Assembly (NCBI RefSeq): GCF_023156535.1
Contig: NZ_JALNMH010000016.1
Location: 1-64,000, forward strand
From: Pseudomarimonas salicorniae
Lineage (GTDB): Bacteria > Pseudomonadota > Gammaproteobacteria > Xanthomonadales > Xanthomonadaceae
DNA length: 64,000 nt
Direction: 5' to 3'
Part shown: positions 428-16,504 of the stretch, piece by piece
How positions within the stretch are numbered: position 1 is the first letter of the stretch
Layout: each line of letters opens with the position of its first letter
Program-made: the position numbers and the translations under genes
Notes under the pieces: generated by a model
What the model saw: only the letters and a program-made list of their open reading frames with translations
Told to the model about the DNA's origin: nothing
Database searches by the model: none

Positions 428-474
428 CCACAAGATGTAGTGGTTGCCGTGCACCGCAACACAACAGGTTGTGG
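428..474. promoter_or_regulatory. Two tandem NrdR-box-like operators, 31 bp apart
   Basis: Box 1 (428-443, CCACAAGATGTAGTGG) and box 2 (459-474, ACACAACAGGTTGTGG) both fit the 16-bp NrdR consensus acaCwAtATaTwGtgt at most positions, with the CAC/GTG ends kept. Start-to-start spacing is 31 bp, about three helical turns, the arrangement known for NrdR-repressed ribonucleotide reductase genes. They sit just downstream of the -10 element, a position suited to repression. The nrdR gene itself is not in the window. Confidence 0.8.
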
Positions 475-641
475 GTGCCGGAAAGGTCAACGGGGAGGCG
501 ACAGATACAGTCATACGCTTATCGCAGCCAGCGAAGGACTTGTTCCTAGGGGTTTTCCCGATGGGGCGCCGCGCTGCGATAGCCGTTTTTTTTGCCCAGC
601 GCGGCACGCCCGATCGCGCGGTCACGGAGGAAGACACAACA

Positions 642-2789
642 ATGAGCACGGTGCGCCTTGAGGCGGTGAAGAACGCAGTGGCCGAGATCCCCCTGCAGCC
701 GGCATCCCAGGACATCTGGGACAAGAAGTACCGACTGAAGAGCAAGCAGGGCGAGGCGATCGACCGCGACGTCGACGACACCTACAAGCGCGTCGCCCGC
801 GCCCTGGCCGATGCCGAAGCCACCCCGGAGAAGCGCAAGTACTGGTACGAGCGCTTCGTCTGGGCGCTGCGCCGCGGCGCCATCCCGGCCGGCCGGATCA
901 CCTCCAATGCCGGCGCGCTGGAGCACAAGCCCGCCACCAGCACGATCAACTGCACCGTCTCCGGCACCATCGAGGACTCGATGGACGGCATCCTCGAGAA
1001 GGTCCACGAGGCTGGCCTCACCCTGAAGGCCGGCTGCGGCATCGGCTACGAGTTCAGCACCCTGCGTCCGCGCGGGGCCTTCGTCGCCGGCGCCGGCGCC
1101 TACACCTCGGGCCCGATGTCCTTCATGGATATCTACGACAAGATGTGCTTCACCGTCAGCTCCGCCGGCGGCCGCCGCGGCGCGCAGATGGGCACCTTCG
1201 ATGTCGCCCATCCGGACGTGAAGGAGTTCATCCGCGCCAAGCGCGAGGACGGCCGCCTGCGCCAGTTCAACCTCTCGCTGCTGATCACCGACGGCTTCAT
1301 GCAGGCCGTGCGTGACGACGCCGACTGGCCGATGGTCTTCCCGGTGCACGTCAAGGAACGCGACGAACTCGACCTCGCCGACGCCGACAAGGTCGTCTGG
1401 CGCGAGTGGCCGACCACCCGCAACTACGTCACCCGCGACGATGGCCTGGTGGCCTGCAAGGTGTACGGGCACATCCGCGCCCGCCACCTGTGGGACATGA
1501 TCATGGTCTCCACCTATGACTTCGCCGAGCCGGGCTTCATCCTGATCGACAAGGTCAACGAGATGAACAACAACTGGTGGTGCGAGAACATCCGCGCCAC
1601 CAACCCCTGCGGCGAGCAGCCCCTGCCGCCCTACGGCGCCTGCCTGCTCGGCTCGGTCAACCTGACCAGCTTTGTCCGCGACCCGTTCACCGACCGCGCC
1701 CGCTTCGACTGGGAGGAATACGCCGAGGTCGTCCGCGTGTTCACCCGCATGCTCGACAACGTGGTCGAGATCAACGGCCTGCCGCTGGAGCAGCAGCGCA
1801 ACGAGATCGCCCGCAAGCGCCGCCACGGCATGGGCTTCCTGGGCCTTGGCAGCACCCTGACCATGCTGCGTATGCGCTACGGCAGCGAGGACAGCTGCGC
1901 CTTCACCGAGCGCGTGGCCCGCGAGATGGCCGTTGCCGGCTGGGAGATCGCCCTGTCGCTGGCCGAGGAGAAGGGCCCGGCGCCGATCATGGACGAGGAC
2001 TTCACCGTCACCGCCGAGATGCTGCGCAAGCGCCCGGAGATGGCCAAGGACGGCTGGAAGATCGGCCAGACCATCAAGGGCCGCCTGCTGCACGCCAAGT
2101 ACAGCCGCTACATGCAGAAGGTCGCCAGCGTCGCCCCCGAGCTGGTCGGCAAGCTGGCCGAGACCGGCGCCCGCTTCACCCACCACAGCTCGATCGCCCC
2201 CACCGGCACGATCTCGCTGTCGCTGGCCAACAACGCCTCCAACGGCATCGAGCCGAGCTTTGCCCACCACTACTCGCGCAACGTCATCCGCGAAGGCAAG
2301 AAGAGCAAGGAGAAGGTCGAGGTCTACAGCTACGAGCTGCTCGCCTACCGCACCCTGGTCAATGCCAAGGCCATGCCCTACGCCGAAGAGGCCGACGCCA
2401 AGCTGCCCGACTACTTCGTCGCCGCCGACGACATCACCCCCAAGGAGCACGTCGACATCCAGGCCGCCGCGCAGATCTGGGTCGACTCCTCCATTTCCAA
2501 GACCGCCAACGTTCCCACCGACTACGCCTACGAAGACTTCAAGGACATCTACCTCTACGCCCACGAGAAGGGTCTCAAGGGCTGCACCACGTTCCGCTTC
2601 AACCCGGCCGCCTTCCAGGGCGTGCTGGTCAAGGAGAAGGACCTCGAGAACACCACCTACCGCTTCGAGCTCGAAGATGGCAGCGTGGTCGAGGCCAAGG
2701 GCAATGAACAGATCGAATACGACGGCGAGATGCACACCGCCGCGAATCTTTTCGACGCGCTCAAGGAAGGGTATTACGGTAAGTTCTAG
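642..2789 (+). CDS. nrdJa: Class II (adenosylcobalamin-dependent) ribonucleotide reductase, catalytic subunit NrdJa
   Basis: Reduces ribonucleotides to deoxyribonucleotides using a cobalamin-derived thiyl radical; cytosolic, 715 aa. The expected cysteines are present: C104 in NCTVSG, and the finger loop N321-P-C323-G-E325 with C334 eleven residues later in YGACLLGS, the spacing of class II enzymes. The protein stops after the barrel and lacks the C-terminal redox cysteines, which are encoded by the third gene of the cluster (3830-4603). This is the split NrdJa/NrdJb layout known from Pseudomonas. The ATG at 642 was chosen over an in-frame start at 444 because CGGAGG lies 10-15 nt upstream and the longer N-terminus would overlap the NrdR boxes. 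Confidence 0.95.
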
Positions 2790-3637: not shown

Positions 3638-3829
3638 TCCAGTCAAGGGTTGCCCCGAGGGTCCCGTCCGCAGGCGCGCAGGAAGTGCGCCGCGGGCGGG
3701 TCACCCGCGCAACCGCCGGCAACGCGGGCCGGCCTCAACACAGCAGACCCGGGGCCTCGCGAACCCCGGCCCGCCGCCCAGCGCGGCGGGGTATGCCGGC
3801 CGTGCCGGCCATCGATCAGGAGTGGTGTC

Positions 3830-4603
3830 GTGGGTATCAAGATCAGCAAGAAAATCAAGGGCTTCAGCGTGCAGACCGCCGAGGACAAGGCCAAGGCCGA
3901 GCAGGCCGCCGCCGCGCCCGCCCCGGCCCCGGCCAAGGAGCCGCAGCGCGCCGAAGTCATCCAGATGCACGAGCAGATCGAGCGTCCGGACGTGCTGGTC
4001 GGCAGCACCTACAAGATCAAGTCGCCCCTGTTCGAGCACGCCCTGTACGTCACCATCAACGACATCGTGCTGAACCCCGGCACGAAGCACGAATCGCGTC
4101 GCCCCTTCGAGATCTTCATCAACTCGAAGAACATGGACCACTTCCAGTGGGTCGTCGCCATCACCCGCATCATGTCCGCCGTCTTCCGCAAGGGCGGTGA
4201 CGTGACCTTCATCGTCGAAGAGCTGAAGGCCGTCTTCGACCCCCGCGGCGGCTACTTCAAGTCCGGCGGCGTCTACATGCCCAGCATCGTCGCCGAGATC
4301 GGCGCCGTGGTCGAAGACCACCTCAAGCTGATCGGCATGATCGTCGACGACAACCTCAGCGACGAGCAGAAGCAGCTGATTGCCGAGAAGCGCGCCGCCT
4401 ATGAGGCCGGGCTAAAAAAAAACAGTGAGCCCGGCGACGCCGTAGCCACGGGTTCCACCGACGGCAAGGGCGAAGCCAAGAGCGCCGAGGCGGGGAGCTT
4501 TCCGCCCGGCGCGACGATGTGCCACAAGTGCAATACCCAGGCGATGATTGTTATGGATGGGTGTCAGACCTGTCTTAGCTGTGGGTATTCGAAGTGCGGG
4601 TGA
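3830..4603 (+). CDS. nrdJb: Class II ribonucleotide reductase, C-terminal subunit NrdJb (TSCPD domain and redox tail)
   Basis: A 257-aa protein. A TSCPD-type domain spans about residues 45-175 (RPFEIF ... DVTFIVEEL ... GGYFKSGG). After a short linker comes a cysteine-rich tail with CHKC, CQTC and a final CGYSKCG, the mobile thiol pair that re-reduces the active site of NrdJa. It is therefore required together with the gene at 642-2789. The GTG at 3830 was chosen because CAGGAG ends 7 nt upstream; an in-frame ORF opens earlier but is proline/arginine-rich intergenic sequence. An A9 run lies in the linker at 4414-4422. Confidence 0.92.
   Translation: MGIKISKKIKGFSVQTAEDKAKAEQAAAAPAPAPAKEPQRAEVIQMHEQIERPDVLVGSTYKIKSPLFEHALYVTINDIVLNPGTKHESRRPFEIFINSKNMDHFQWVVAITRIMSAVFRKGGDVTFIVEELKAVFDPRGGYFKSGGVYMPSIVAEIGAVVEDHLKLIGMIVDDNLSDEQKQLIAEKRAAYEAGLKKNSEPGDAVATGSTDGKGEAKSAEAGSFPPGATMCHKCNTQAMIVMDGCQTCLSCGYSKCG
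4406..4435. other. A9 homopolymer bracketed by a perfect 8-bp inverted repeat inside nrdJb
   Basis: GCCGGGCT (4406-4413) and AGCCCGGC (4428-4435) are perfect complements with A9 (4414-4422) in the 14-nt loop. Reading frame is CTA AAA AAA AAC. One extra A would give AAA AAA AAA CAG TGA, an immediate stop just before the cysteine tail. Confidence 0.7.
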
Positions 4604-4633: not shown

Positions 4634-6154
4634 GTGGCGGTGATACTCCAACAACCTAAAGTTGAGCGGATTGAGATCGACCAGCTCAAGAGCATCGTCG
4701 ACTTATCACTTGAGCTTGACCGATGTCCCTTGACCGGGATCATGGGGAGTAATCGAAGCGGGAAGACTACGGTGCTTCACGCTCTGGCGTGCGCTTTTTC
4801 CCCAGCCACTCCCGGGAGTTCAGACTACCGATTCCCGACATTCTTCCGACCGAACACAGAGTCACTGTGGAAGGACAGTCGTTTCCGCATCGCTTACGGG
4901 GGCAGGCTTGGCGAGGCTACCTTCGCTGGTCTCACTCAGGAGTACAAGAAGGAGGCCGACCGCTGGACTCCGCGATACGGAAACAGGCCACTTCGATTCG
5001 TAAAGTTTGTTGGGATCGCCGATTCTGCTCCAGATTTGGAGACAATCGCACTGAGCTCAATGATTCACTACACGAAAAAATCCAGAGAAGAGAAACACGA
5101 TATCGAAGTTAGAGAGCTTGCGGGGAAAGTCCTGAACGAAAACTACTCAGGCTATTTCGGCGTTAGCTACCAGTATCGAAACCGTCAGTCGATCGGGGTG
5201 TCTACGAAGCAAGCATCCTATTCGGCCTTGTCAATGAGCTCGGGCGAGCAGCGAGTATTCCGCGTCCTCGATACTGTCGTTAATTCTCCAGACTATGCGT
5301 TAGTGCTCATCGATGAGATTGACCTATTTCTTCATCAGGACGCACTCCAGCGCCTGCTTGCAATCCTGCATGATCACTGCAAGAAGCGGCATAAGCAACT
5401 CATCTTTACCACGCATTTCCCGCCTTCAGGTCGCCTCTACGACAGCATCGACCTACACAGCATCCATCGTGGCCCGACTCGCACGCTGTCGTGGAGGGGA
5501 TACTCGCTGGAAGCGTTGAGACACATCACGGGGGCTCAGGTTCGCCCGCTAACCGTCTATACAGAAGATGATCTCGGCGAGCGTGTAGTCGCTCAAGTGG
5601 CAAGCGAGTTGGGGCTAAGGAAGTATGTGGAGACCGCGACCTTCGGTCCTGCGGATAATGCTGCAACATTGGTCGCAGGCCTGCACGCCGCGATGCCAAC
5701 TGCAGACAATTATTTGGCGCTTACTGATGGTGATGTTCTAGGCGCCCGCGGCTCCATCAGGGCTCGAGTGAGGAAAATTTGGAGCGGCAACTCCGCCAAG
5801 CACGAGGACGAGCGAAAGCGAATCGTAAGTAAGATTCGTTCTTTCCGTTCTTTCATGCGCGAGGAATCGGGCAATGCGGCCTGTCCGGAGGTATGCATCC
5901 ACGCAATGGTCTGCGAGGTGGATCCCCTGAAAATACCCCCAACGCTTCGAGATTTTGCGGAGCTGTGTCGTTCAATCGTCCATCCGCTGGATCGCCATGG
6001 ATTTCTGAACGATGTCGTAGACCTCTCTGGCGAGAACCGTAGTGTTGCGATATCCAAGCTGGTCGATATTGCGGCGGCCTCCCCTCTATGGAGCCGATAC
6101 ACCCGCGTATTGAGAGCGTGGCTTCGGAAGAAGAAGGTTCAGCTGGCGCTTTGA
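4634..6154 (+). CDS. OLD-like ABC-type ATPase with C-terminal TOPRIM-like region
   Basis: A 506-aa cytosolic protein. It has a P-loop GSNRSGKTT at residues 38-46, an SSGEQ signature (LSMSSGEQ, about 200) and Walker B with the catalytic pair D227-E228 in LVLIDEIDLFLH, followed by IFTTHFPP. This is the AAA_21/AAA_15 core of OLD-family proteins. The C-terminal half has E311-D-D in VYTEDDLGE and D365-G-D367 in LALTDGD, the acidic pattern of a TOPRIM nuclease centre. Gene is clearly lower in GC than its neighbours, suggesting transfer. It stands alone: no UvrD-like helicase (Gabija) or HNH partner (Septu) is adjacent. The GTG start at 4634 has no strong ribosome site. A defence role is inferred. 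Confidence 0.75.
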   Translation: MAVILQQPKVERIEIDQLKSIVDLSLELDRCPLTGIMGSNRSGKTTVLHALACAFSPATPGSSDYRFPTFFRPNTESLWKDSRFRIAYGGRLGEATFAGLTQEYKKEADRWTPRYGNRPLRFVKFVGIADSAPDLETIALSSMIHYTKKSREEKHDIEVRELAGKVLNENYSGYFGVSYQYRNRQSIGVSTKQASYSALSMSSGEQRVFRVLDTVVNSPDYALVLIDEIDLFLHQDALQRLLAILHDHCKKRHKQLIFTTHFPPSGRLYDSIDLHSIHRGPTRTLSWRGYSLEALRHITGAQVRPLTVYTEDDLGERVVAQVASELGLRKYVETATFGPADNAATLVAGLHAAMPTADNYLALTDGDVLGARGSIRARVRKIWSGNSAKHEDERKRIVSKIRSFRSFMREESGNAACPEVCIHAMVCEVDPLKIPPTLRDFAELCRSIVHPLDRHGFLNDVVDLSGENRSVAISKLVDIAAASPLWSRYTRVLRAWLRKKKVQLAL

Positions 6155-6188: not shown

Positions 6189-6274
6189 AAACAGGGGTCA
6201 AGCGAAACAGGGGTCAGAGTGCACTTTCAGGAAAACAGGGGTCAGAGGAAAAACAGGGGTCAGAGTGCACTTTC
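6189..6274 (+). repeat. Cluster of GGGGTCAGAGTGCACTTTC repeats (two full, two partial)
   Basis: Full copies lie at about 6205-6228 and 6251-6274, each preceded by AAACA. Partial copies stop after GGGGTCA (6189-6200) and GGGGTCAGAGG (6231-6250). They fill the gap between the ATPase gene and the lipoprotein gene. Confidence 0.9.
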
Positions 6275-6381
6275 GCTTGGAGAGTTTTTGCGGTAGAGGA
6301 CTCTGACTGCCGTTCCGGTGGCTGACTAGTTGAACGCCCCTTTTTCGCCATTGGCCGCGGTCTTCGAATCCGGAGGAAAGA

Positions 6382-7134
6382 ATGAAGCCGTTAGCTGCGA
6401 TTGCTCTTGTTGCGTTTCTCGTGGGCTGCTCTCCTGTCCAGCCCGTTAAGCCGGTCGTCTATGAGCCAGCGAGCGCAACCTCAGAACGTAGGCTGGACGC
6501 AACGTACGAGATTGGGGTGCCGAAGGAGGTGTTCGTCGGCGACCAGATGCTAAGAGTTCAGGATTATCACGTGGTCACGCGGGATACCGGCTCCCACTCA
6601 ACGCGACTCACGCCGACGCAGGATTTCAAGGTCAGACTCCCACCTTTCGCAACTGCTACGGTCGACAAGGGGGACATCGTTAGGGTGGAGGGAGTGACGG
6701 AGCGCGATGGCCGTAGCTATCGTTTAGTCGAGTTGCCTGACCCGACAGCCGGTCTGCTGCGCTTTCTGATCGATGAGGAAGGGGGGTTCGAGGGAAGCGC
6801 TCTGAACAATCAGGGTGCGCGTATGGGCTGGAGTTACAAGCCAGAGCCATCGACCGTTCGCCTCGTCCCTGCCCCTTCAAGTGTGCGGATAGATACCACC
6901 AAGGGGTTCACCAACTTTGAGTTGGTGTACGGCGGAACTACGCGGGATTCGTTCCAGATTCTCTATCGCGAGTACTCGCGCGACGATTTAGCCCGTCCCG
7001 CGTTCACCCAGAACCTCGTTTACGAGAAGGGCGGCGAGCCCGTGATCCGATTTCGCAACCTCAAGATTGAGGTGCAAGAGGCATCAAACGACAGGATCCG
7101 ATTCGTTGTGATCGAAGACGGAGGCAGGGGGTAG
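6382..7134 (+). CDS. Putative lipoprotein of unknown function
   Basis: A 250-aa protein. An N-terminal signal ends in the lipobox FLVGC with acylation at C16, so it should be membrane-anchored and face the periplasm. The mature part is polar, rich in threonine and valine, with no recognised domain. GGAGG lies a few bases before the ATG. Like the upstream ATPase gene it is lower in GC than the rest of the window, and both are bracketed by copies of the 19-bp repeat, so the two may have arrived together. Confidence 0.65.
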   Translation: MKPLAAIALVAFLVGCSPVQPVKPVVYEPASATSERRLDATYEIGVPKEVFVGDQMLRVQDYHVVTRDTGSHSTRLTPTQDFKVRLPPFATATVDKGDIVRVEGVTERDGRSYRLVELPDPTAGLLRFLIDEEGGFEGSALNNQGARMGWSYKPEPSTVRLVPAPSSVRIDTTKGFTNFELVYGGTTRDSFQILYREYSRDDLARPAFTQNLVYEKGGEPVIRFRNLKIEVQEASNDRIRFVVIEDGGRG

Positions 7135-7160
7135 ATCCCTGAGGAGCAGGGGTAAGGAGA

Positions 7161-7182
7161 ACATGGGTCAGAGTGCACTTTC
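7161..7182 (+). repeat. GGGTCAGAGTGCACTTTC repeat copy
   Basis: One near-full forward copy starting ACATGGGTCAG, about 27 bp after the lipoprotein stop codon. A degenerate GCAGGGGTAAGG piece precedes it. Confidence 0.85.
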
Positions 7183-7275
7183 TGCTAGCCGCTTCTCAGA
7201 AGGCCCGGGCTCTAGATCCGACTGCTACTGAAAGCCGGAGGGAGGTCGTACCGTCGGCTACAAGTCGCCCGCGCC

Positions 7276-8244
7276 TCAGGGGGCCGTCGCGGCGTCGAGC
7301 GCGGGCATCTCGAACTTTAGTTCGATGTAGGCGCCTTTGAGCTGCGGTCCGCTCGGCTCGGGGGTGGCAAGTGAGCCGCTCAGACGCATGGTGTCAACGG
7401 ACAAATCGAGCCGCAGTTGCGTCGGCTGAATTGAATAGGTCCTCGCGCCGTCTACGATCTGCGCGGAGATGGGCGAGCCGGCCGGGTCGAGACTTACACG
7501 CAGATGCCGCGATGCCAACTCATGCTCGCTCCCCTGCTGCCGTGCAATCAGCTCTGGCGAGAAGAGCAGGTCCATGCCGTGAGACCCGGCTTCAGGGAGG
7601 GCATCGATGATGACCCAGCGTTCCAGAGGGCCGAAAGGACTGTCAGGTTCGTCGGGGATTGGCTGAAACACGACGATGCCTTCGGCATAGGGCATGCCGG
7701 GATTGCCGAGACGCCATCGGGATGCGCGGCGCTTCAGCTCGGCCTCGTAATCGGGCTCGCCTGTTCCCACGGGGTGGACTGGCTGCGTCTCGCCGGCAGA
7801 TAACGCCACCTCGCCCCAGAACTTCGCTGCGTACGCGTGCTGCGGCACGCCTACGCCATCCAGATAGGCATTCGCCAAAGCGCGCTGCGCCTTGGCCAGT
7901 CCTCCCATCGCCGCCCGTCGCAACCAGATGGCGGACTCCTTCGTATCCGCCGGCCCCAGCGAGCCATCGGTGAGGCTGCGTGCGAAGTCGAACTGAAGTG
8001 CTGCGTCTCCCCGCTCCGCTGCGCGGCGCAGCAGCTGCCGCGCGGTATCGAAGTCGCCTCGCTCCGCGGCGTCGATGCCAAGCTGCAGCAATGCAGACTC
8101 CACGGCGATGTCTGCCGCGTGCTGCAGGCGGTCGGGCGATTCCTCGCTTCGCGGCGTCTCCGCGTCGTCGGGTGCCTGCGCGAGGCAAGGCCCGGCTGGC
8201 GGAGCAAGGAGTAGCAGCGTGATCAACAAGCCCGTGCAGCGCAT
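7276..8244 (-). CDS. Secreted Sel1/TPR-like repeat protein
   Basis: A 322-aa protein. Signal peptide is LLITLLLLAPPAGPCLAQA. Residues about 45-150 form Sel1-like helical repeats (AAERGDFDTARQLLRRAAERGD; ESAIWLRRAAMGGLAKAQRALANAYLDGVGVPQ), scaffolds for protein-protein contacts in the periplasm. The C-terminal half has no recognised domain. The ATG at 8244 was preferred to one at 8298 because only it places the hydrophobic segment directly after a short basic start. Repeat copies lie just upstream of the start. Confidence 0.75.
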   Translation of the reverse strand: MRCTGLLITLLLLAPPAGPCLAQAPDDAETPRSEESPDRLQHAADIAVESALLQLGIDAAERGDFDTARQLLRRAAERGDAALQFDFARSLTDGSLGPADTKESAIWLRRAAMGGLAKAQRALANAYLDGVGVPQHAYAAKFWGEVALSAGETQPVHPVGTGEPDYEAELKRRASRWRLGNPGMPYAEGIVVFQPIPDEPDSPFGPLERWVIIDALPEAGSHGMDLLFSPELIARQQGSEHELASRHLRVSLDPAGSPISAQIVDGARTYSIQPTQLRLDLSVDTMRLSGSLATPEPSGPQLKGAYIELKFEMPALDAATAP

Positions 8245-8304
8245 GTCGCGTGCCCTCGGAGCGACTCGCGGCAAGTATGCCAGCAGCCAAGGCGGCAACA
8301 GGGG

Positions 8305-8373
8305 AAACAGGGGTCAGAGTGCGCTTTCCGCTGGGGGAAACAGAGGGTAAAACAGGGGTCAGAGTGCACTTTC
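8305..8373 (+). repeat. Two GGGGTCAGAGTGCACTTTC repeat copies
   Basis: Copies at 8305-8328 (one mismatch, GCGCTTT) and 8350-8373, both forward, in the 5' region of the minus-strand Sel1 gene. Confidence 0.9.
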
Positions 8374-8497
8374 CGCGAGGCCGGATCACAGCCGCGAGTC
8401 GCCCTTCATCATGAGCTGGCCCGGTGGACTGGCCGGATGCAGCCCGCATCGTCATTCGGCAGAAGCACACGGCCTCCAGCGGCGCTCCGGCCGGGGA

Positions 8498-8567
8498 CTA
8501 GCTGAACGCTCCCGCTTCCGCCGGCGCAGGGTCGCGGGGCTCGATGCAGATGCGGTCGCGTCCTGCG
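8498..8567 (-). pseudogene. Duplicate remnant of the 3' end of the diguanylate cyclase gene
   Basis: Read on the minus strand this encodes GRDRICIEPRDPAPAEAGAF then S and a TAG stop. That is almost identical to the last residues of the diguanylate cyclase 1073 bp away (stop at 9571). The similarity continues past the stop to about 8410 with gaps. The remnant ends exactly where a 19-bp repeat begins (8568). Confidence 0.8.
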
Positions 8568-8684
8568 AAACAGGGGTCAGAGTGCACTTTTCGCCGGGTT
8601 CTTTTGAACGCAAACGTAAGCAAAGGTGCAGGCACGCGTGGACACTGACTTTCTGATCCACTCCCGTGGTCACAGCATGGGCGA

Positions 8685-8714
8685 TTGGCACTGTAGCGTC
8701 ATGACGCTATAGTG
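8685..8714 (+). promoter_or_regulatory. Duplicate copy of the antitoxin promoter-operator
   Basis: TTGGCA (8685-8690) and TATAGT (8708-8713) are 17 bp apart. The 26-bp palindrome at 8689-8714 carries one mismatch relative to copy 2 (CACTGTAG instead of CACTATAG). Confidence 0.75.
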
Positions 8715-8731
8715 TTCCCTGGAGGTGCCCC

Positions 8732-8842
8732 ATGACTGAGCTGTCCAAGCGCTCGACAACGAAACAGGGGTCAGAGTGCACTTTTCGCCGGGTTCTTTTG
8801 AACGCAAACGTAAGCAAAGGTGCAGGCACGCGTGGACACTGA
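8732..8842 (+). pseudogene. Truncated duplicate of the antitoxin start
   Basis: The first nine codons (MTELSKRST) match the antitoxin at 8926, then the frame runs into the second repeat copy and stops after 36 residues. It keeps the GGAGG site and promoter, so a short chimeric peptide could be made, but it lacks the rest of the ribbon-helix-helix fold. Confidence 0.7.
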
Positions 8843-8878
8843 CTTTCTGATCCACTCCCGTGGTCACAGCATGGGCGA

Positions 8879-8908
8879 TTGGCACTATAGCGTCATGACG
8901 CTATAGTG
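8879..8908 (+). promoter_or_regulatory. Antitoxin-toxin promoter overlapping a perfect 26-bp palindrome
   Basis: TTGGCA (8879-8884) and TATAGT (8902-8907) with a 17-bp spacer form a near-ideal promoter. A perfect palindrome at 8883-8908 (half-site CACTATAGCGTCA) covers the space between and including the -10. This is the expected site for autorepression by a ribbon-helix-helix antitoxin. Confidence 0.8.
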
Positions 8909-8925
8909 TTCCCTGGAGGTGCCCC

Positions 8926-9159
8926 ATGACTGAGCTGTCCAAGCGCTCGACCATCTATTTCGATCCCGACCTGCACCAGGCCTTGCGCCTGAAGGCGGCG
9001 AGCACCCACCAGTCCGTTTCCGAGATCGTGAACGCCGCGCTGCGCGAGGCCCTGCGCGAGGATCAGCAGGACCTGGCTGAGTTTGCGTCGCGCGTGGAGG
9101 AGCCCACGATGTCCTACGAGGCGCTGCTCAACGACCTCAAGGCTCATGGCAAGTTATAG
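8926..9159 (+). CDS. Antitoxin, ribbon-helix-helix (CopG/RelB-like)
   Basis: A 77-aa protein. The N-terminal part RSTIYFDPDLHQALRLKA followed by SVSEIVNAALREAL is a ribbon-helix-helix DNA-binding domain. The C-terminal part MSYEALLNDLKAHGKL is the tail that would wrap the toxin. GGAGG sits at the usual distance. The last 14 nt overlap the toxin gene, giving translational coupling. It should neutralise the toxin at 9146-9403 and repress its own promoter through the palindrome at 8883-8908; this role follows from the family and layout. Confidence 0.88.
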   Translation: MTELSKRSTIYFDPDLHQALRLKAASTHQSVSEIVNAALREALREDQQDLAEFASRVEEPTMSYEALLNDLKAHGKL

Positions 9160-9403
9160 GCTGGTCTTCAAGCAATCAGTCGCCGAGGATCTGCGTGCCA
9201 TCCCCAAGGCGGATGTCGCGCGCATTCTCAAGCGGATCGAAGCGCTCGCCGATGACCCCACACCGCCGGGCAGCGAGAAGCTGTCCGCCCAGGCCCGCTA
9301 CCGGATCCGCCAGGGCGTGTACCGCATTCTCTACGAGATCGAGAACGATCAGCTGGTGATCGTGGTCGTCAAGGTCGGGCATCGGCGCGAGGTGTACCGA
9401 TGA
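9146..9403 (+). CDS. RelE/ParE-superfamily toxin
   Basis: An 85-aa protein. It has the family pattern: an N-terminal YRLVFKQSVAEDLRAI, a central KRIEALADDPTPPGSEKL, RYRIRQGVYRILYEI and a C-terminal IVVVKVGHRREVY. RelE members cleave mRNA at the ribosome and ParE members poison gyrase; the sequence alone does not decide which. Start at 9146 overlaps the antitoxin stop. A degraded copy of the 19-bp repeat begins within the stop codon. Confidence 0.88.
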   Translation: MASYRLVFKQSVAEDLRAIPKADVARILKRIEALADDPTPPGSEKLSAQARYRIRQGVYRILYEIENDQLVIVVVKVGHRREVYR

Positions 9404-9428
9404 AAATAGCGGTCAGGGTGCACTTTCC
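9402..9428 (+). repeat. Divergent copy of the 19-bp repeat at the toxin stop codon
   Basis: GAAAATAGCGGTCAGGGTG then CACTTTCC matches the repeat with several changes. It starts at the toxin stop codon. Confidence 0.65.
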
Positions 9429-9570
9429 CTAAGCCGCACCGCAGCCGCGACGGGTGCTGCAGCGATAAGCCGGCCCGGTGGGCCGGGCGGTTGTGGCCCG
9501 CATTGTCATTCGGCAGAGGCCCCTGCGCTACCGGACCGTCCACGGCATCCAGCAGCGCACCGACCGGGGA

Positions 9571-10638
9571 TCAGCTGAACGCTTGCGCTTCCGCCGGCGC
9601 GGGGTCGCGGGGTTCGATGCAGATGCGGTCGCGTCCTGCGGCCTTCGCTGCATACAACCTGCGGTCGGCGCGTGACAGCCATTGGCTGGGGTCGTCCTTG
9701 GCGCCCAGCGAGGCGACGCCGATCGACACGGTCACGGGTGTTCCGTCGGCGGTGCGCAGCCGTGCACGGATGGCCGCCTGCAGCTTGTCGAGCGCGGCCG
9801 AGATCCCGTCGGGCGTGGTGCCGGGCATCACCAGGACGAACTCCTCGCCTCCATACCGGTAGAAGCTGTCAGTGGCGCGCATGGTGTCGCCCACGATCCG
9901 GGCAAGATCGATCAGCACCTGGTCGCCGGCATCGTGGCCGTGACGGTCGTTGACGTCCTTGAAGTGGTCCAGATCGATGACCGCCAGGCCAGCCGGCTCG
10001 CCCTCGCGCCGGGCGGCTTCGGCACGCATGGAAATCTCCCGCTCCAGGGCGCGGCGGTTGCCGACATGGGTGAGCGGATCGCGATTGGCCATGACGTCAA
10101 GCTGACGATGCTGGCGCGACGTACGCCACGCAAAGACGAACGAGAACAATGCGACCTGGGCAGCGACCGCGAAGAAGGTCGTCCGTTCGAGCGGGTCGGC
10201 GAAGTTATCGGGAGCAAGACCGATGCCCGCGATCAGCACCACCGAGAGCAGCAGGGCCACCCGGCTGGTGGCCATCAGGAAGATGCCGATCATCAACGAG
10301 AACGCCCACAGAAAGGACAAGCCGTAGACTGGAATCACCACCAGAAGGCCCGCCGTCAGCAGCGAGGCAATGACATTGCCGGCCATCACGCTGCGTCCGG
10401 TTTTCCAGGCGTAGGCCATGCCGCCGAGCATTACCAACACGACCATGGCGTCGAACAGGGCGACCGCCACGGCCCCCTGCATAAGGCGATAGACGGCGAA
10501 CGACCCGATGGCCAGGGAGGCGACGGTGCTGAACACGCAAACGATGGCCAGCTGCGTGTCGGTCCTCAGCCGACCCATGGCATCAACGCCGATGATGGCC
10601 TGACGACGCTCGGGTCGATTGTCGACTCCTGGACTCAC
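9571..10638 (-). CDS. Membrane-bound diguanylate cyclase (GGDEF)
   Basis: A 355-aa protein making the second messenger cyclic di-GMP. Hydrophobic segments between residues about 25 and 180 form a multi-pass N-terminal sensor; the GGDEF domain follows, with DPLTHVGNRRALE near its start. The active motif is intact (GGEEF, 263-267), and an RxxD inhibitory site (RATD, 254-257) lies five residues before it, so the enzyme should be active and feedback-regulated. The GTG at 10638 was chosen because GGGGGAT lies just upstream; a TTG one codon earlier is possible. The 3' end is duplicated at 8498-8567. Confidence 0.88.
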   Translation of the reverse strand: MSPGVDNRPERRQAIIGVDAMGRLRTDTQLAIVCVFSTVASLAIGSFAVYRLMQGAVAVALFDAMVVLVMLGGMAYAWKTGRSVMAGNVIASLLTAGLLVVIPVYGLSFLWAFSLMIGIFLMATSRVALLLSVVLIAGIGLAPDNFADPLERTTFFAVAAQVALFSFVFAWRTSRQHRQLDVMANRDPLTHVGNRRALEREISMRAEAARREGEPAGLAVIDLDHFKDVNDRHGHDAGDQVLIDLARIVGDTMRATDSFYRYGGEEFVLVMPGTTPDGISAALDKLQAAIRARLRTADGTPVTVSIGVASLGAKDDPSQWLSRADRRLYAAKAAGRDRICIEPRDPAPAEAQAFS

Positions 10639-10694
10639 CAACCTATCCCCCGGAAGCTTGCAGAGGCGAGCAGGAAGAGTACAGCGCGCGGACG

Positions 10695-10770
10695 TCTGGG
10701 GTCAGAGTGCACTTTCCCCCGAAACGCATCGGAAACACTACTCTGACCCTGATTCGCCCCTGACCCTGAT
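10695..10770. repeat. Forward 19-bp repeat followed by two partial reverse copies
   Basis: A forward GGGGTCAGAGTGCACTTTCC lies at 10698-10717. Reverse pieces CTCTGACCCTGATTCG and CCCTGACCCTGATTCG follow at about 10740-10772, just before the beta-helix gene. Confidence 0.8.
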
Positions 10771-10797
10771 TCGACCACCCGTGATCCGGGAGAGTCC

Positions 10798-12114
10798 GTG
10801 TTGACTGCCGCCGCCTTGCCTCGCCTCCTGCCTGCTGTTTGTTGTCTCGGACTGTGCAGCGTGTTGATTTCGGCCGCGTCGGCCCAGGGTGCGCGGCCGC
10901 GCACTGCGCCGCCGTTGCCGGCGCCGGATCCGATGAGCTACCAGATCATCCATGTCGACACGGCGCAGGCGTTGGCCGATGCCGCCTGGAATCTGCGAAG
11001 CAACCAGGCCATCGTGATTGCGCCGGGTACCTATGACCTGGCGAGCGTCAATTTTCCGAACGGGGTGGACGGACGGATCACGGTAGGGCGCTTCGGCGCG
11101 CCGATCATTTCGAACATCCAGGTTCGTGGTGCCACCGACGATCCCGCCGATGTGGTGCTGCGCGGCGCCGGCATGCTCAATCCGATCGTGCCGTATGGCG
11201 TGCAGATCTTCACCGCGCGCGAGGTGACCCTGGCCAACTTCAGCGTGGGCGAGGTCTATTACCACGCGATCGGCGTACAGGGCGGTCAGGGTGCCGGTGA
11301 TATCCGCATCTACAACGTGCGCGCCTATGACGCGGGCCAGCAGATCATCAAGGGCTCCGGCGCAGGCGCCGATGACGTCACGATCGAGTACTCGCAGGTC
11401 GACTACAGCGTGGGCGCCATCGTGCACCCCGAAGGCAGCCCGCCTAACAGCTGCTACACCAACGGCATCGACGTCACCGGAGGTGATCGCTGGATCATTC
11501 GCGACACCCGCATCGAGCGCATCCGCTGTCAGAACAATACCCTGGCCGGACCTGCGATCCTGGTCTGGCAGGGCTCGGCCGATACGCTGATCGAACGCAA
11601 CCTTATTCTCGACTCATCGCGCGGAATCAGCCTGGGCCTGGTGGCCAGCAGCGACCACAGTGGCGGCATGGTGCGCAACAACCTGATCCGCTGGAATCCC
11701 GCGGCCACCTACGCCGTGGATGTGCCGATCTACTCCACCTCACCCAACTCGCGAATCCTCCACAACACGGCGCTGACGCGAGGGCGATACCCGAACGCCA
11801 TTGAAGTCCGCTTCGCGGGTGCGACCGGGGTCGAGGTAGCCGGCAACCTGCTGGACGCCGCAATACAGCCGAGGCAGGGCGCAGCCCCGGTGCTCAGCAA
11901 CAACCGTAGTGATGCGCAAACGGCCTGGTTTCGTGATGAGGCCCATGGCGATCTCAGACTGTCGGTGGCGGGCGAAGCGCAGCTGAGCGGCGCGCTCCCG
12001 CGGCATCCCCAGGTGTTGCTGGACTGTCTAGCTGAGAGCCGGCCCGCCTCCACCGAGGCCGGTGCCTGCGGGCGAGACCCGCAGCGGGTGTTTGCCGATG
12101 GGTTCGAGCTCTGA
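10798..12114 (+). CDS. Secreted right-handed beta-helix protein with C-terminal FADGFE motif
   Basis: A 438-aa protein. The signal peptide ends near SAASAQG. The rest has parallel beta-helix character: repeated short strands with asparagine turns (IVIAPGTYDL, VVLRGAGM, ILDSSRGISL, NNLIRWNP, HNTALTR, VAGNLLD), as in pectate-lyase-like surface proteins. Catalytic residues cannot be assigned. It ends RVFADGFEL, similar to the ends of two other secreted proteins here (14454 and 40746). The start is GTG with GGGAG upstream. Confidence 0.7.
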   Translation: MLTAAALPRLLPAVCCLGLCSVLISAASAQGARPRTAPPLPAPDPMSYQIIHVDTAQALADAAWNLRSNQAIVIAPGTYDLASVNFPNGVDGRITVGRFGAPIISNIQVRGATDDPADVVLRGAGMLNPIVPYGVQIFTAREVTLANFSVGEVYYHAIGVQGGQGAGDIRIYNVRAYDAGQQIIKGSGAGADDVTIEYSQVDYSVGAIVHPEGSPPNSCYTNGIDVTGGDRWIIRDTRIERIRCQNNTLAGPAILVWQGSADTLIERNLILDSSRGISLGLVASSDHSGGMVRNNLIRWNPAATYAVDVPIYSTSPNSRILHNTALTRGRYPNAIEVRFAGATGVEVAGNLLDAAIQPRQGAAPVLSNNRSDAQTAWFRDEAHGDLRLSVAGEAQLSGALPRHPQVLLDCLAESRPASTEAGACGRDPQRVFADGFEL

Positions 12115-12125
12115 GGCGGAAGCCC

Positions 12126-12167
12126 GGGGTCAGATGCAGCGATAACAGGGGGCAGAGTGAACTCTTT
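12126..12167 (+). repeat. Degenerate 19-bp repeat copies after the beta-helix gene
   Basis: A partial GGGGTCAGATGC (12126-12137) and a diverged full-length copy AACAGGGGGCAGAGTGAAC at 12143-12167, both forward, directly downstream of the stop codon. Confidence 0.7.
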
Positions 12168-12282
12168 CAAGGAATTCCACTCGGCCTTGGTCTGACCGCC
12201 GAGGCGACCGAATCGGCCTTTCCCATTGCCACCAATCTGCGGGTTACACTTCGCGACCTTTCGGGCCCCGGAGCTGCGCGTT

Positions 12283-14454
12283 GTGAATAGGTTCCTTCTT
12301 GGGACTCGGCGTAAACGGTCGATGTGGCTGTCGTGGCTGGTGCTTCTCCTTTCAGCCGAGTTTGTTCTGGCTGAGCAGTTTGATCTTGCCGGCCCGCCGG
12401 GCAGCGTCGGATTCGGCGCCCAGATCGCCGTGCTCCCCAACGGCAACCTCGTTGTAACCGATCCCCGACGTCCCCCGGATGGGGCTGCCTACCTCTACTC
12501 CCGTGATCTTCAGCTGCTCAGCACAGTGACGAACGTGTCGCCCTTCGCGGCACCTGGTACGTCGCTGGATACCGTTCGGATTGTGGTTCTTCGGAACGGG
12601 AACTATCTGCTTGTCAATGAGACCTGGAGCAATGGAGGTCTTTTCAGACTGGGAATGGTCGCCTGGGCGAACGGAGAAACCGGCATCAGTGGGAGCATCT
12701 CATCATCGAACGCCCTGATCGGAGCAAGGGCGGATGACAGCGTAGGGTTTCCGGCGGTGCATCCGCTGGCTAACGGAAACTACGTCGTGGAGTCGTTTCG
12801 CTGGAGCAACGGGGCCTCTCGTGTGGGCGCCATCACCTGGGGCTCCGGCACCTCGGGCGTCTCCGGCCCGGTTTCGGCGGAGAACTCGGTAATCGGAAGC
12901 TCGATTGGCGATTCTCCGAGTTTCGGCACGGCGCTGAGCAACGGCAACTACGTCCTCCTCAATACCGGGTGGGGAACGCCTGAGCGCCCTTACCTGGGCG
13001 CCGCCATGTGGGTTGACGGAACTGTGGGGGCGACAGGCTTCATGACGGCCGAGAATTCGCTCGTAGGATCTGCCGCGGAAGACTTCATCCTCCGCAGGGT
13101 CTACCCACTGGTAAACGGCAACTTCGTCCTGGCGTTGCCCTATTGGGACAACGGTGACCAGGTCAATGCCGGCGCAGCGGTGTGGGGCGATGGCACGAGG
13201 CCAATGGTGGGGACGGTGTCTGCGGCCAATGCGCTCGTGGGCACGCGGACCGGGAGCTATGTCAGCTATGACGAGGTGCAGGCCCTGAGCAATGGACACT
13301 ATGTTGTAGCTTCCTCGGACTGGGACAGTCCGACAGGAACCAACAACGGTGCGGTGACCTGGGGCAACGGGGCGGTCGGGACAACGGGCGAGGTGTCGGC
13401 GGCGAATTCCCTGGTGGGTGGCGCTGACTTCCAGTTCGTGGGAGGCGACCCCGAGTATCTGGTCGATAGCGTGATCCCGCTTGCGAATGGGCACTACGTG
13501 ACAGCCTCTCCGTACTGGGGAGGGCAGAAGGGCGCGGTTACATGGGGTGATGGCACGAAGGCGACTGTGGGAGTCGTTTCTCCACGCAATTCCATCGTGG
13601 GCAATTCCGTTGGCGATCGGGTGGGTAGCTCGGGCGTGACGGCCCTCACCAATGGACACTACGTCATTGCCTCCGCCGGATGGAAGGGCGTGGGAGGCGT
13701 CCCAGTTGGCGCGGCTACCTGGGTAAACGGCACTGGTCCGCGCACGGGTTCCGTGGGCATGGGCAATTCGCTGGTGGGCAACACGCCTATGAGCGCGGGG
13801 ATGGCCGTGACGGCGCTGGCGAACGGCCACTATGTGGTGGCGTTTCCAGGCTGGGATCGAGGATCTGTCTCTCAAGCCGGTGCGGTGGTCTGGGGAAACG
13901 GAGAACTCGGCAGCAAGGGCTCTCCTTCGCCGCAGAGTGCCTTGGTCGGTTCACGAGAGCGGGATTTTGTCGGCTGGCCGATAGCGCTGAGCGACGGCAA
14001 CTACGTGGTCTGCAGCGGGAACTATTCGAGCGACTCGGCGACTCGGGTCGGCGCAGTGACCTGGGCGAGTGGATGGGGCGGGCGTGTTGGCGAAATCAAC
14101 GCCTCGAACTCGCTCATCGGATCGTCGCGGGATGACCAGGTCTGCAGCGGCCATTTGGATTCCCGGACGCGCCCGCTGCCCGATGGCCAGTATCTGGTCG
14201 CCAGTCCGTTTTTCGACGACGGAGAGGTGTTCGACGCCGGTGCGTTCACCCTTGCCGAAACCGCCGTGACCGGGCACCTCAACTATCAGAACAGCGTGAT
14301 CGGATCGGTCAGTGAGGGCGGAGAGACTGGCGGTCGACCCGGTGTGTTCGCGGCCTATGATGAGGTTCACCGTCGACTCTTTGTCGGCCGAGGCGCCAGC
14401 AATCTGGTTACGGTAGTGACCGGTGCGCGCGTGTTTCGGTCGAGCTTCGAGTAG
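12283..14454 (+). CDS. Secreted repeat protein (about ten NGNYVV...W..GAVTWGNG..NSLVG repeats)
   Basis: A 723-aa exported protein. After a basic start and hydrophobic signal (LSWLVLLLSAEFVLA) it is almost entirely about ten repeats of 55-65 residues. Each has NGNYVV (or HYVV), a W, GAxTWGNG and a terminal N-S-L/V-V/I-G. I recall this repeat as the unit described in Pfam as DUF5650; function unknown. It ends GARVFRSSFE, a variant of the FADGFE ending. GTG 12283 has GGAG nearby; ATG 12322 is an alternative. The repeat DNA is well diverged between units, so the array is old. Confidence 0.7.
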   Translation: MNRFLLGTRRKRSMWLSWLVLLLSAEFVLAEQFDLAGPPGSVGFGAQIAVLPNGNLVVTDPRRPPDGAAYLYSRDLQLLSTVTNVSPFAAPGTSLDTVRIVVLRNGNYLLVNETWSNGGLFRLGMVAWANGETGISGSISSSNALIGARADDSVGFPAVHPLANGNYVVESFRWSNGASRVGAITWGSGTSGVSGPVSAENSVIGSSIGDSPSFGTALSNGNYVLLNTGWGTPERPYLGAAMWVDGTVGATGFMTAENSLVGSAAEDFILRRVYPLVNGNFVLALPYWDNGDQVNAGAAVWGDGTRPMVGTVSAANALVGTRTGSYVSYDEVQALSNGHYVVASSDWDSPTGTNNGAVTWGNGAVGTTGEVSAANSLVGGADFQFVGGDPEYLVDSVIPLANGHYVTASPYWGGQKGAVTWGDGTKATVGVVSPRNSIVGNSVGDRVGSSGVTALTNGHYVIASAGWKGVGGVPVGAATWVNGTGPRTGSVGMGNSLVGNTPMSAGMAVTALANGHYVVAFPGWDRGSVSQAGAVVWGNGELGSKGSPSPQSALVGSRERDFVGWPIALSDGNYVVCSGNYSSDSATRVGAVTWASGWGGRVGEINASNSLIGSSRDDQVCSGHLDSRTRPLPDGQYLVASPFFDDGEVFDAGAFTLAETAVTGHLNYQNSVIGSVSEGGETGGRPGVFAAYDEVHRRLFVGRGASNLVTVVTGARVFRSSFE

Positions 14455-14514
14455 GGGTTTGACGGGTAGAAGCAGGCAAACAGAGGGGCAGAGAAGAGGC
14501 AGGAGTCAGGAAGT

Positions 14515-14537
14515 TCTGGGGTCAGAGCCCACTTTCC
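14515..14537 (+). repeat. 19-bp repeat copy (GGGGTCAGAGCCCACTTTCC)
   Basis: Forward copy with two changes, about 60 bp after the repeat-protein stop codon. Confidence 0.8.
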
Positions 14538-14728
14538 ACTGACTTCATTCTGGGGTCCTAGGCTGAACACTGGATCACACCGCATCTGAAGGCGGGGGGC
14601 TCGGCGAGTGGCCGTTGGGTTGGCCGACCGGAAGCTCGCCCTGAGCGGGCCGAGTGCTGTACACCTCTCTCACCGCCCTCGCCGTCCTCCGATCAGGGCG
14701 CTACGCTAGGGCTCGGGAGGAGGCGCCC

Positions 14729-15097
14729 ATGAAGCCCATCGATTCTGCCAAGCTCGATGCGATCATCGCCGCCGCGCACCGCAGCGCGCGGGAGCGCAAC
14801 CAGGGCTATCGGGAACGCGCGCTGGCGCTGTACCCGTGGATCTGCGGCCGCTGCGGACGGGAGTTCAACCGCAGCAACCTGCGTGAGCTGACCGTGCACC
14901 ACCGCAACCACAACCACCAGGACAACCCGGCGGACGGTTCGAACTGGGAGCTGCTCTGCCTGTACTGCCACGACAACGAGCACCAGCGGCAGATCGAGGC
15001 CGGCAACAGCATGGGGTTGGACGATGCCGTGGCCCCGGCCACCTCCAACCCGTTCGCCGGGCTGGGGGATCTGCTCAAGAACAAACCCAAGGCCTGA
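14729..15097 (+). CDS. yajD: YajD-family HNH nuclease
   Basis: A 122-aa cytosolic protein. Two zinc-binding CxxC pairs (C39/C42 and C77/C80) frame the HNH core TVHHRNHNHQDNP ... HDNEH, a betabetaalpha-metal nuclease fold. Length and the ending (NPFAGLGDLLKNK) match YajD. ATG 14729 follows GGGAGGAGG; an earlier in-frame start at 14654 has no such site. Its cellular role is not established. It is not next to an ATPase gene, so a Septu-type pair is not indicated. Confidence 0.88.
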   Translation: MKPIDSAKLDAIIAAAHRSARERNQGYRERALALYPWICGRCGREFNRSNLRELTVHHRNHNHQDNPADGSNWELLCLYCHDNEHQRQIEAGNSMGLDDAVAPATSNPFAGLGDLLKNKPKA

Positions 15098-15103
15098 TCC
15101 AGA

Positions 15104-15126
15104 GGAAGGGTCAGAGTGCACTTTCT
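15104..15126 (+). repeat. 19-bp repeat copy after yajD
   Basis: GGGTCAGAGTGCACTTTC lies at 15108-15125, ten bases after the yajD stop codon, forward. The rest of the gap to 15547 shows no gene or remnant I can recognise. Confidence 0.88.
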
Positions 15127-15547
15127 CCCGCCTCATGCCCCCATCGGCAATGGCGCGAGGGCCCGAAGCCTGATTGGTCGCCGCGGAAGCATGGCCATTC
15201 GCCCTGTCGCCTGCAGGGTGACAAGAGGTAAGGGGCGATATGAGGGCCCGACGCCAGATGCGTCCGGGGTGAGCGACCAGGCAGGCGTGGTCTCCGGGGA
15301 GTTGGGGCAGGACGTACTGTCCCGACAGGCACGCGCGGGTCCGGCAATGGGTCTGCCTGCCATCCCTCGGGTCGATCACGCTGTAGGCCCTTTCTGACAC
15401 GCCTCGGCGGAAGTGTCCGATTCCCATGCGGCCGGGCAGCGCCGAACATCAGGGTCGTAGTCCGCAGCACTCGGTGGCCTGCACCGTCATGTCCTGCTGG
15501 CAAGGGGCGCCAGCGAACCATCAACTCCAATTCGGGGGAGAGCAATC

Positions 15548-16504
15548 GTGAGCAGTACCGTGGTGCGGAGCGAGAGGTTCAGCTTGTCTGTCTGGGACTG
15601 GCTGCTGGTAATCGTGATCGGCGCGATCATCTGGCTGGTGTTTGCGGCGGCTGGCGGGTCTTTCGCTGCCGCACTGGGTGAAGCGACGGTCTATCTGGGT
15701 TTCGTGGTGGGATTGTCCTACTCGTTCGGGCGCGGTCGATGGACGAAGGCGGCGGGCAGGGCGAAGGCAGGCAGATGGGCCTTTCGCATCCTCTTCCTGT
15801 TGCTTGCCTGCGCGGTGCTGTTCGTCTCGATGGTCAGGTTGGTCGGATACGCCTCGGGAAAGGCGGGCGCCCAGCAGCTGATGGAAACCACCTCGGCCCT
15901 TCGCGCTGCGCTGGATGCCGACGCCGATTCCGGACAGATCCGAAGCGCGTTCCATCAAATCGCCACGGAGAAGCTGGAGGCGGCCGCTTCATCCCCGGTG
16001 ATCGAGCGGCCGTTCAGAATGATCGCCACGGAACTTGCCGTGGAAACACTGCGTCCGCAGCTGGAGCTGGCCGAGGTGACATCGAGGCTGGTGGAGCTGG
16101 GTCCGCTTGCACCTGCCACGCTTGCCAGTGAGCAGAGTCGAAGGGAGGTGCTGACCAGCGCCGAGGCAATGCTGGTGGCCATCGAGGCCTCGCGCGAGGC
16201 GGTGTTCTCCATTGAGAAGAGGGCGGAAGCGGCCATCGTGGACCAACCTTCAAGCCGCGCTGCCCGCGAGGCTTTCCTGGATCCCATCCGGATCTTCCGC
16301 CAGCACGCAGAGGCGACCTTTCCAGCCCCTGAACTGGTCAACTGGGCAAACGCCATCATCGCGCTCCATGCGTACCTCGACGCTCACGTCGATGCCTGGC
16401 GCATCGACTCCGAGGGCGTGTTGCATGCCTCTGCCGCCGAGCGACAGGAGATCACCAAGCTGCTCGAGGGGGTCAAGCTGGCCTCGGCACGCTTGGCGGA
16501 CTGA
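15548..16504 (+). CDS. Membrane protein of unknown function
   Basis: A 318-aa protein. Three hydrophobic segments at about residues 15-36, 44-60 and 76-95 are followed by a long helical soluble region rich in glutamate and alanine. No catalytic motif was recognised. GTG start with GGGGGAG upstream. A repeat copy lies directly downstream. Confidence 0.6.
   Translation: MSSTVVRSERFSLSVWDWLLVIVIGAIIWLVFAAAGGSFAAALGEATVYLGFVVGLSYSFGRGRWTKAAGRAKAGRWAFRILFLLLACAVLFVSMVRLVGYASGKAGAQQLMETTSALRAALDADADSGQIRSAFHQIATEKLEAAASSPVIERPFRMIATELAVETLRPQLELAEVTSRLVELGPLAPATLASEQSRREVLTSAEAMLVAIEASREAVFSIEKRAEAAIVDQPSSRAAREAFLDPIRIFRQHAEATFPAPELVNWANAIIALHAYLDAHVDAWRIDSEGVLHASAAERQEITKLLEGVKLASARLAD

Follow-up and report, generated by a model that had tools for sequence, protein, structure and literature searches.

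The gene examined here lies at positions 4634 to 6154 on the forward strand of the window, by which we mean the whole stretch of 64,000 nucleotides that was analyzed. It had been predicted from the sequence to be a single gene for an OLD-like ATPase with a TOPRIM center, and thus a candidate defense gene. The list of open reading frames (ORFs) and the sequence itself gave exactly this frame, with 506 codons and no internal stop. The features of the locus are as follows.

444 to 2789, forward strand: B12-dependent ribonucleotide reductase gene, presumably nrdJ-like as named from its sequence, upstream of the TSCPD gene
3650 to 4603, forward strand: TSCPD gene (Pfam TSCPD, 3.5e-8), 5' border of a variable site
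4634 to 6154, forward strand: predicted ATPase-TOPRIM gene of the IbfA/HEC-04 family, 506 aa, with a GTG start at 4634 (GTG at 4640 possible)
4649 to 5539, forward strand: ABC/SMC-type ATPase domain, about residues 6 to 302 (Pfam AAA_21, 1.2e-15, and fold matches)
4745 to 4771, forward strand: Walker A, residues 38 to 46 (GSNRSGKTT), K44 in 51/51 aligned rows
5234 to 5251, forward strand: ABC signature, residues 201 to 206 (MSSGEQ), M201, G204, and E205 in 51/51
5312 to 5317, forward strand: end of Walker B, D227-E228, in 50/51 and 51/51
5534 to 6151, forward strand: predicted TOPRIM-like domain and helical C-terminal part, residues 301 to 506 (AlphaFold2 model and matches to OLD C-terminal regions)
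5564 to 5569, forward strand: E311-D312, in 51/51, after a strand predicted at 306 to 310 (AlphaFold2 model)
5726 to 5734, forward strand: D365-G366-D367, in 51/51, after a strand predicted at 360 to 364 (AlphaFold2 model)
6203 to 9444, forward strand: cluster of GGGGTCAGAGTGCACTTTC-type repeats 3' of the gene, with 8 copies of a 43-nt unit

The compositional contrast claimed between the gene and its surroundings was evident. The GC content of the gene was 0.544, compared with 0.673 for the window, and was equally low in only 2 of 625 windows of the gene's length; the third-position GC was 0.605, compared with 0.919 for the upstream reductase gene. When its own genome was searched (E ≤ 1e-3), the gene matched only itself, and no match was found in the three other genomes of the genus that were searched. 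Within the taxonomic family, 18 of 297 genomes, its own included, gave a match (E ≤ 1e-3). Most of these were partial matches to the ATPase, and matches over nearly the full query were limited to the gene itself, genome G025 (55% identity), and genome G300 (34%). A sample of the class also gave matches in 18 genomes, its own included, out of 369, and apart from the gene itself none extended past query residue 322. Because of the GC and third-position GC values, the lack of a match in the three congeners, and this patchy presence in the family, the gene was probably acquired by horizontal transfer.

Repeats had been reported on the 3' side of the gene, and the searches agreed with this. An 18-mer of the GGGGTCAGAGTGCACTTTC-type repeats, with up to three mismatches allowed, gave 16 matches in the window, compared with 0.04 expected. 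The short repeat GGGGTCAGAGTGCACTTT (up to one mismatch) had 18 copies in the genome, 13 of them at positions 6210 to 21017 of the window, 4 on contig C29, and 1 on contig C23. The repeat cluster also contained a 192-bp tandem duplication with 99% identity (8566 to 8757 and 8760 to 8951). Two overlapping small ORFs within the repeats (8926 to 9403), 2.8 kb from the gene, resemble a CopG/ParD-like antitoxin and a RelE-type toxin and may form a toxin-antitoxin pair.

Relatives were also sought in collections of genomes and viruses. A scan with the single protein gave no relative in either collection, and no match to the 506-aa protein was found in the phage records. When an alignment served as the query instead, 75 loci were recovered from the genome collection and 3 from the viral one. 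Of these 78 loci, 65 were taken as members of the protein family, the rest being short ATPase matches. A frame was obtained for 64 of the 65 (L141, which gave none, is still counted among them), and 55 of the frames were at least 450 aa long. Five of the 55 were left out of the alignment: L095, L107, L112, and L114, which have N-terminal extensions, and L143, which is identical to L117. The N-terminal extension of L118 was considered as an EcoRII-type DNA reader, an assignment that was dropped as it had no support in Pfam.

The motifs that the original prediction had named were all present, namely K44, S202-S203-G204-E205-Q206, D227-E228, E311-D312-D313, and D365-G366-D367. In the resulting 51-row alignment, K44, E205, E228, E311, D312, D365, G366, D367, and P418 were identical in every row, D227 was kept in 50 rows, and position 313 was D in 30. 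This near-universal identity, together with the Pfam match to AAA_21 (E of 1.2e-15), places the motifs far from chance. Position 41 of Walker A was G in 48 rows, C in 2, and R in 1, the last being the protein studied here; since the G025 protein likewise has R, the substitution is common to two sister proteins. Pfam gave no TOPRIM- or OLD-named model at E ≤ 1 on the 506-aa protein, and no match to DUF4435, which we take to be the domain of AriB. The best match of a C-terminal profile to PDB sequences was at chance level (E of 0.41). The invariant E311, D365, and D367 suggest that the TOPRIM-like domain may have metal-dependent nuclease activity.

The fold of the protein was then predicted with AlphaFold2. 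The model of the whole protein, made with 51 sequences, had a pLDDT of 91.4 and a pTM of 0.77, and residues 301 to 506 alone gave 94.9 and 0.91, respectively. For the whole model, the best Foldseek match was the OLD nuclease of Thermus scotoductus (6p74), with an E value of 2.6e-14 and a TM of only 0.35. The ATPase half resembled SMC, Rad50, PtuA, and AriA-type chains with Z scores of 16.6 to 19.3 among the 50 matches listed. Since VIA-align on the whole model gave the ATPase part alone among the matches listed, the C-terminal half was modeled separately. Its closest matches were the C-terminal regions of the Xanthomonas and Burkholderia OLD proteins, with Foldseek E values of 9.7e-4 to 2.6e-3 and Z scores of 9.1 to 9.3 over 162 to 170 aligned residues. 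For 6njx the Z score was 9.3 (rmsd of 4.2, 165 residues aligned), and for 6p74 it was 7.9 (rmsd of 3.3, 127 aligned). Next were the PARIS chains 8ux9_A and 8v46_D (Z scores of 7.4 and 7.0), which have 305 to 306 residues each and were taken to be AriB. The first unrelated fold was a response regulator, with a Z score of 6.4; GajA (8j4t, 6.1) and retron Eco8 (9lpa, 5.1) ranked below it, and no conclusion was drawn from them. A Z score of 9.3 is modest, as the tool's usual top score for models that lack a clear match is 7 to 8. The assignment of the modeled C-terminal half to the OLD-type TOPRIM fold is nevertheless firm, because the top seven matches were all ATPase-TOPRIM defense proteins. In the model, the acidic residues follow strands in the layout expected of TOPRIM, with E311 after residues 306 to 310 and D365-x-D367 after residues 360 to 364. 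The claim of a C-terminal TOPRIM domain was therefore upheld by the predicted fold.

A profile search of the kind proposed with the original prediction was run with the PADLOC models. The best model was HEC-04, with an E value of 1.2e-32 over model positions 27 to 379 of 494; the AriA models matched more weakly, and Old matched at 1.1e-9 through the ATPase part. All 51 aligned rows matched HEC-04 at 1e-5 or better. The match to the protein of genome G215 covered nearly the whole model (2.5e-50 over positions 7 to 489), and that to an ibfA-type plasmid protein, P0001, was partial too (9.2e-42 over positions 16 to 386). Judged by these matches, the G215 protein is closer to HEC-04 in the narrow sense than is either the 506-aa protein or P0001. 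P0001, which was taken as ibfA by its length, gene order, and family, aligned end to end with the 506-aa protein at 30% identity, and all the motifs were kept.

In PLSDB, 896 plasmid records had a relative, 830 of them with at least 80% query coverage in one place. Escherichia accounted for 576 of the records and Salmonella for 217; all relatives were below 60% identity, and the ibfA-like genes had about 30% identity across 96% of the query. In the two clear cases that were opened, the gene was flanked by two short genes on one side and a ProQ/FinO gene on the other, which is the order ydfA-ydeA-ibfA-proQ given for ibfA in an IncI1 plasmid operon (PMC12111858). According to the same report, IbfA of the IncI1 plasmids R64 and pUA1135 causes abortive infection of UAB_Phi20, a phage similar to P22. 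Plating of this phage is restored when ibfA is deleted and falls to 0.05 with cloned ibfA, the complementation being incomplete (PMC12111858). IbfA alters phage transcription, both early and late, without stopping the replication of phage DNA, and it is equated there with HEC-04, an ABC ATPase fused to TOPRIM that is active against T4 and T5 and not against T7 and lambda (PMC12111858).

Like IbfA, the protein studied here is encoded by a single gene, has the same two domains, and is of similar length (506 compared with 518 aa). It differs in that it belongs to another clade and lies behind a chromosomal TSCPD gene, whereas ibfA lies in a plasmid operon. With HEC-04 it shares an ABC ATPase and a TOPRIM half, the latter assigned here by the predicted fold, in one polypeptide of about 500 aa, although its match covers only positions 27 to 379 of the 494 in the model. 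We conclude from these sequence comparisons that the gene is a new chromosomal member of a described family rather than an example of an unknown kind, since a stand-alone ATPase-TOPRIM defense protein had already been reported (PMC12111858). The suggestion of a stand-alone variant thus held insofar as no partner is adjacent to the gene, but not insofar as it implied a novel kind.

The class 1 OLD nucleases, such as 6p74 and P2 Old, are likewise encoded by single genes, and the C-terminal half studied here matches OLD C-terminal regions with Z scores of 9.1 to 9.3; the 506-aa protein differs from them in having no TOPRIM- or OLD-named Pfam match. Class 1 OLD genes are described as lying away from defense genes (PMC10568477), whereas genes of the IbfA/HEC-04 family are often linked to restriction-modification (RM) genes. 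The gene studied here resembles class 1 OLD in this respect, with the TSCPD gene and an ORF without a Pfam match as its neighbors and no adjoining defense gene. As for PARIS, the ATPase half resembles 8v46_B (Z score of 16.6) and the C-terminal half resembles the two PARIS chains named above, but AriA and AriB are two proteins, whereas a single protein without a DUF4435 match is encoded here. No GajB, reverse transcriptase, or HNH-type partner was found next to the gene, by Pfam for both neighbors and by eye for the wider ORFs, in agreement with the predicted absence of the partners of OLD-like systems.

We next considered the genomic site behind the nrdJ-TSCPD genes. The reductase was a conserved neighbor in most of the loci compared by tblastx, and the TSCPD gene was found in 52 of 60 genomes of the taxonomic family, including its own. 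Among 30 loci (two with less than 1 kb of downstream DNA), only its own and that of G025 carried the ATPase-TOPRIM gene behind TSCPD, with gaps of 30 and 22 bp in the two genera. Elsewhere, the DNA behind TSCPD held a type II methyltransferase and a restriction enzyme (G030; another such pair in G082), HEC-07 (G077, 4.1e-101), an FRG/PDC-S15 protein (G064), a TIR-effector-like protein as the second gene (G029), DUF2971 (G016), DUF1828 (G061), a short UvrD helicase (G005), or a phage-type integrase (G028); in many other genomes the genes looked ordinary. PADLOC matches (E ≤ 1e-6) among the first two called genes were found in 8, perhaps 9, of 20 genomes. Four of the eight were strong (below 1e-20; G030, G082, G077, and G064) and four were weak (2.2e-12 to 4.8e-7); the possible ninth, PDC-S42 (2.2e-50), came from family tallies and has no locus assignment. 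Random stretches of the same genomes, used in place of a control with another gene of the window that gave only 11 good relatives besides its own, yielded 1 match in 20, to an amino acid transporter. The sample of 20 is likely to be somewhat favorable, because it was picked from 32 loci with longer DNA behind TSCPD after the first genes had been seen, and because 12 loci were left out (L071 of G025 and 11 others) and, among the 11 others, the four from which a protein was scanned (L174, L183, L184, and L186) had no PADLOC match. The actual frequency is perhaps lower, closer to 8 or 9 of 31. These modest numbers suggest that the site is a defense hotspot, which we did not find in print in a limited search that included part of PMC11680222. 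The idea that the cargo borrows the promoter of the nrdJ operon was rejected, as the first called gene was codirectional in only 20 of 32 loci.

Mobile-element genes were also seen at the site, which lies 3' of position 4603 in the window and 3' of the same TSCPD gene in L070 to L083 and L167 to L186. Integrase genes were present there in some genomes, as were genes that we take to be RAYT-like. In G025, what are presumably IS3-like and IS66-like transposase genes lie about 1.5 kb past the ATPase-TOPRIM gene (L071:7573-10476). In G028, the phage-type integrase (Pfam, 1.7e-6) is followed by two large ORFs, an arrangement like that of a three-gene mobile element (L186:1089-6065).

The neighbors of the relatives suggest how the gene may work. 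RM genes were found in the flanks of 23 of the 65 family loci, compared with 0 of 27 control loci, although the RM profiles were built from these same family loci and are biased toward finding RM genes there; the other 42 loci had no such gene in the flanks examined. Ten of the 23 were type I, 3 were type III, 7 had a C5 methyltransferase (4 of them fused), 2 were Mrr-type, and 1 was Eco57I-type. Pfam searches on representative neighbors confirmed HsdM, HsdS, type III Mod and Res, the C5 methyltransferase, Mrr, and Eco57I, and the HsdR profile was checked through one member only (L094). The order hsdM-hsdS-gene-hsdR was found in L084, L085 (with hsdM in two frames), L086, and L120, and in L135 with one extra ORF between. 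A second test of the RM linkage was attempted in a sample of the phylum, where 3 of 398 genomes matched, its own included, which was too few. In the genome of the gene studied here, the profile search found no match to HsdS or to a C5 methyltransferase and one N6-methylase match above the cutoff, on another contig (3.5e-14); G025 also had no HsdS but had N6- and C5-methylase matches.

The 506-aa protein, G025, and L084 to L088 grouped in one clade (100/100) of a 60-protein tree, L084 to L086 being the closest relatives found after G025, and the plasmid protein fell in another clade. Since the clade of the 506-aa protein includes type I-linked genes, its ancestor may have been located within a type I restriction operon. 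The type I label taken alone was unclustered on the tree (6 changes, compared with a shuffled mean of 7.6, and as low in 88 of 500 shuffles), whereas all labels together were clustered (as low in 0 of 200 shuffles). A limited search of the literature did not find the embedding of relatives in type I operons or with other RM genes in print, and the paper naming the HEC systems may have it.

In four proteins from Lachnospiraceae, a C5 methyltransferase domain (PF00145, with an E value of 8.4e-19 or better) was joined to the N-terminal side of the ATPase-TOPRIM protein (L106:5008-7458, L107:1245-3743, L112:2471-4873, and L114:5005-7446). The motifs that we take to be named PCQ and ENV in C5 methyltransferases were missing from the fused domain in all four, whereas both were kept in four separate C5 methyltransferases of family loci. 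The fused domain is possibly an integrated decoy or a DNA reader. These fusions, too, were not found in print in a limited search.

Taken together, the gene at 4634 to 6154 is best explained as a member of the IbfA/HEC-04 family that acts alone in abortive infection and was gained horizontally by the chromosome at the variable nrdJ-TSCPD site, a reading to which we give a probability of about 0.7. This defense role is read from the family and the predicted fold, at about 30% identity to IbfA-type proteins. Against it, the HEC-04 match stops at position 379 of 494, and R41 in Walker A is unusual. The missing TOPRIM match in Pfam, the chance-level PDB match, the modest Z score, and the phenotype that YbjD shows when its TOPRIM domain is removed (PMC13261556) also count against it. 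The product is most likely an ATPase-gated TOPRIM nuclease acting in abortive infection, with a trigger and a substrate that we infer. By analogy with OLD, PARIS, and IbfA, ATP-bound dimers of the ATPase would restrain the TOPRIM domain, and a phage-made signal would alter the state of the ATPase and release it. The acidic residues, with metal ions, would then cut nucleic acid, and the infected cell would yield few phages; the present copy would do so without a restriction operon. The substrate might be host tRNA, as for AriB (PMC12409363) and as reported for activated P2 Old (cited in PMC13261556), or DNA, which the T. scotoductus OLD cuts in vitro (PMC10568477). We lean toward tRNA or another host nucleic acid, since phage DNA still replicates in ibfA cells (PMC12111858).

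PARIS senses anti-restriction proteins, and the protein studied here could similarly sense the inhibition or absence of an RM complex, for which it would need an RM partner. The RM genes in 23/65 family loci compared with 0/27 control loci, the gene order in L084 to L086 and L120, and the fusions without PCQ and ENV in L106, L107, L112, and L114 are in line with this. We consider it unlikely, as its own genome has no HsdS or C5 methyltransferase match and its one N6-methylase match lies on another contig, cloned ibfA protects (PMC12111858), 42/65 loci have no such RM gene in the flanks examined, and the type I label is unclustered on the tree. That the ATPase half is the effector, disturbing phage gene expression or DNA topology without cutting while TOPRIM is regulatory or idle, would agree with YbjD, whose phage phenotype persists when TOPRIM is absent (PMC13261556), and with the effect of IbfA on early and late phage transcription but not on the continued replication of phage DNA (PMC12111858). 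We regard this reading as improbable, since E311, D312, D365, and D367 are identical in 51/51 homologues, which is hardly to be expected of an idle domain.

The same place behind TSCPD in two genera, with gaps of 30 and 22 bp, could point to a housekeeping role tied to the adjoining ribonucleotide reductase operon. The gene lies there in only 2 of the 30 loci and is foreign in composition, which makes such a role very improbable. Its homologues are not always in housekeeping contexts either, as 746 of the 896 plasmid records were typed conjugative, 23 of 65 loci had RM genes, and presence is patchy; with the predicted TOPRIM fold of the C-terminal half, this supports the candidate-defense reading of the original prediction. 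The chance that the gene is an inactive relic is slighter still: R41, found in 1/51 rows, would fit, but the frame is full-length, all other motifs are kept, and the G025 sister protein shares the R. We therefore retain the abortive-infection reading, and the earlier reader was right on the structure and likely role of the protein.

A wider and doubtful possibility concerns the whole family. The IbfA/HEC-04 proteins might serve type I, II, and III RM systems as a mobile second line, shutting the cell down when phages attack restriction. The Lachnospiraceae fusions would then carry a catalytically dead C5 methyltransferase as a decoy or DNA reader, and orphans such as the present gene would now be independent, in an nrdJ-TSCPD defense hotspot.

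A 2023 review asked for cellular cases in which an OLD-type protein alone drives defense (PMC10568477). The gene studied here, the G025 copy, and the RM-embedded relatives span a natural range between RM-linked genes and orphans, so that sensing by the ATPase and the need for a restriction partner are directly testable. The results of greater interest are the siting of relatives among RM genes, the fusions to a dead methyltransferase, and the site behind nrdJ-TSCPD. The C5 methyltransferase fusions suggest a decoy-type sensor, which, if confirmed, would bring a striking new element into restriction biology.
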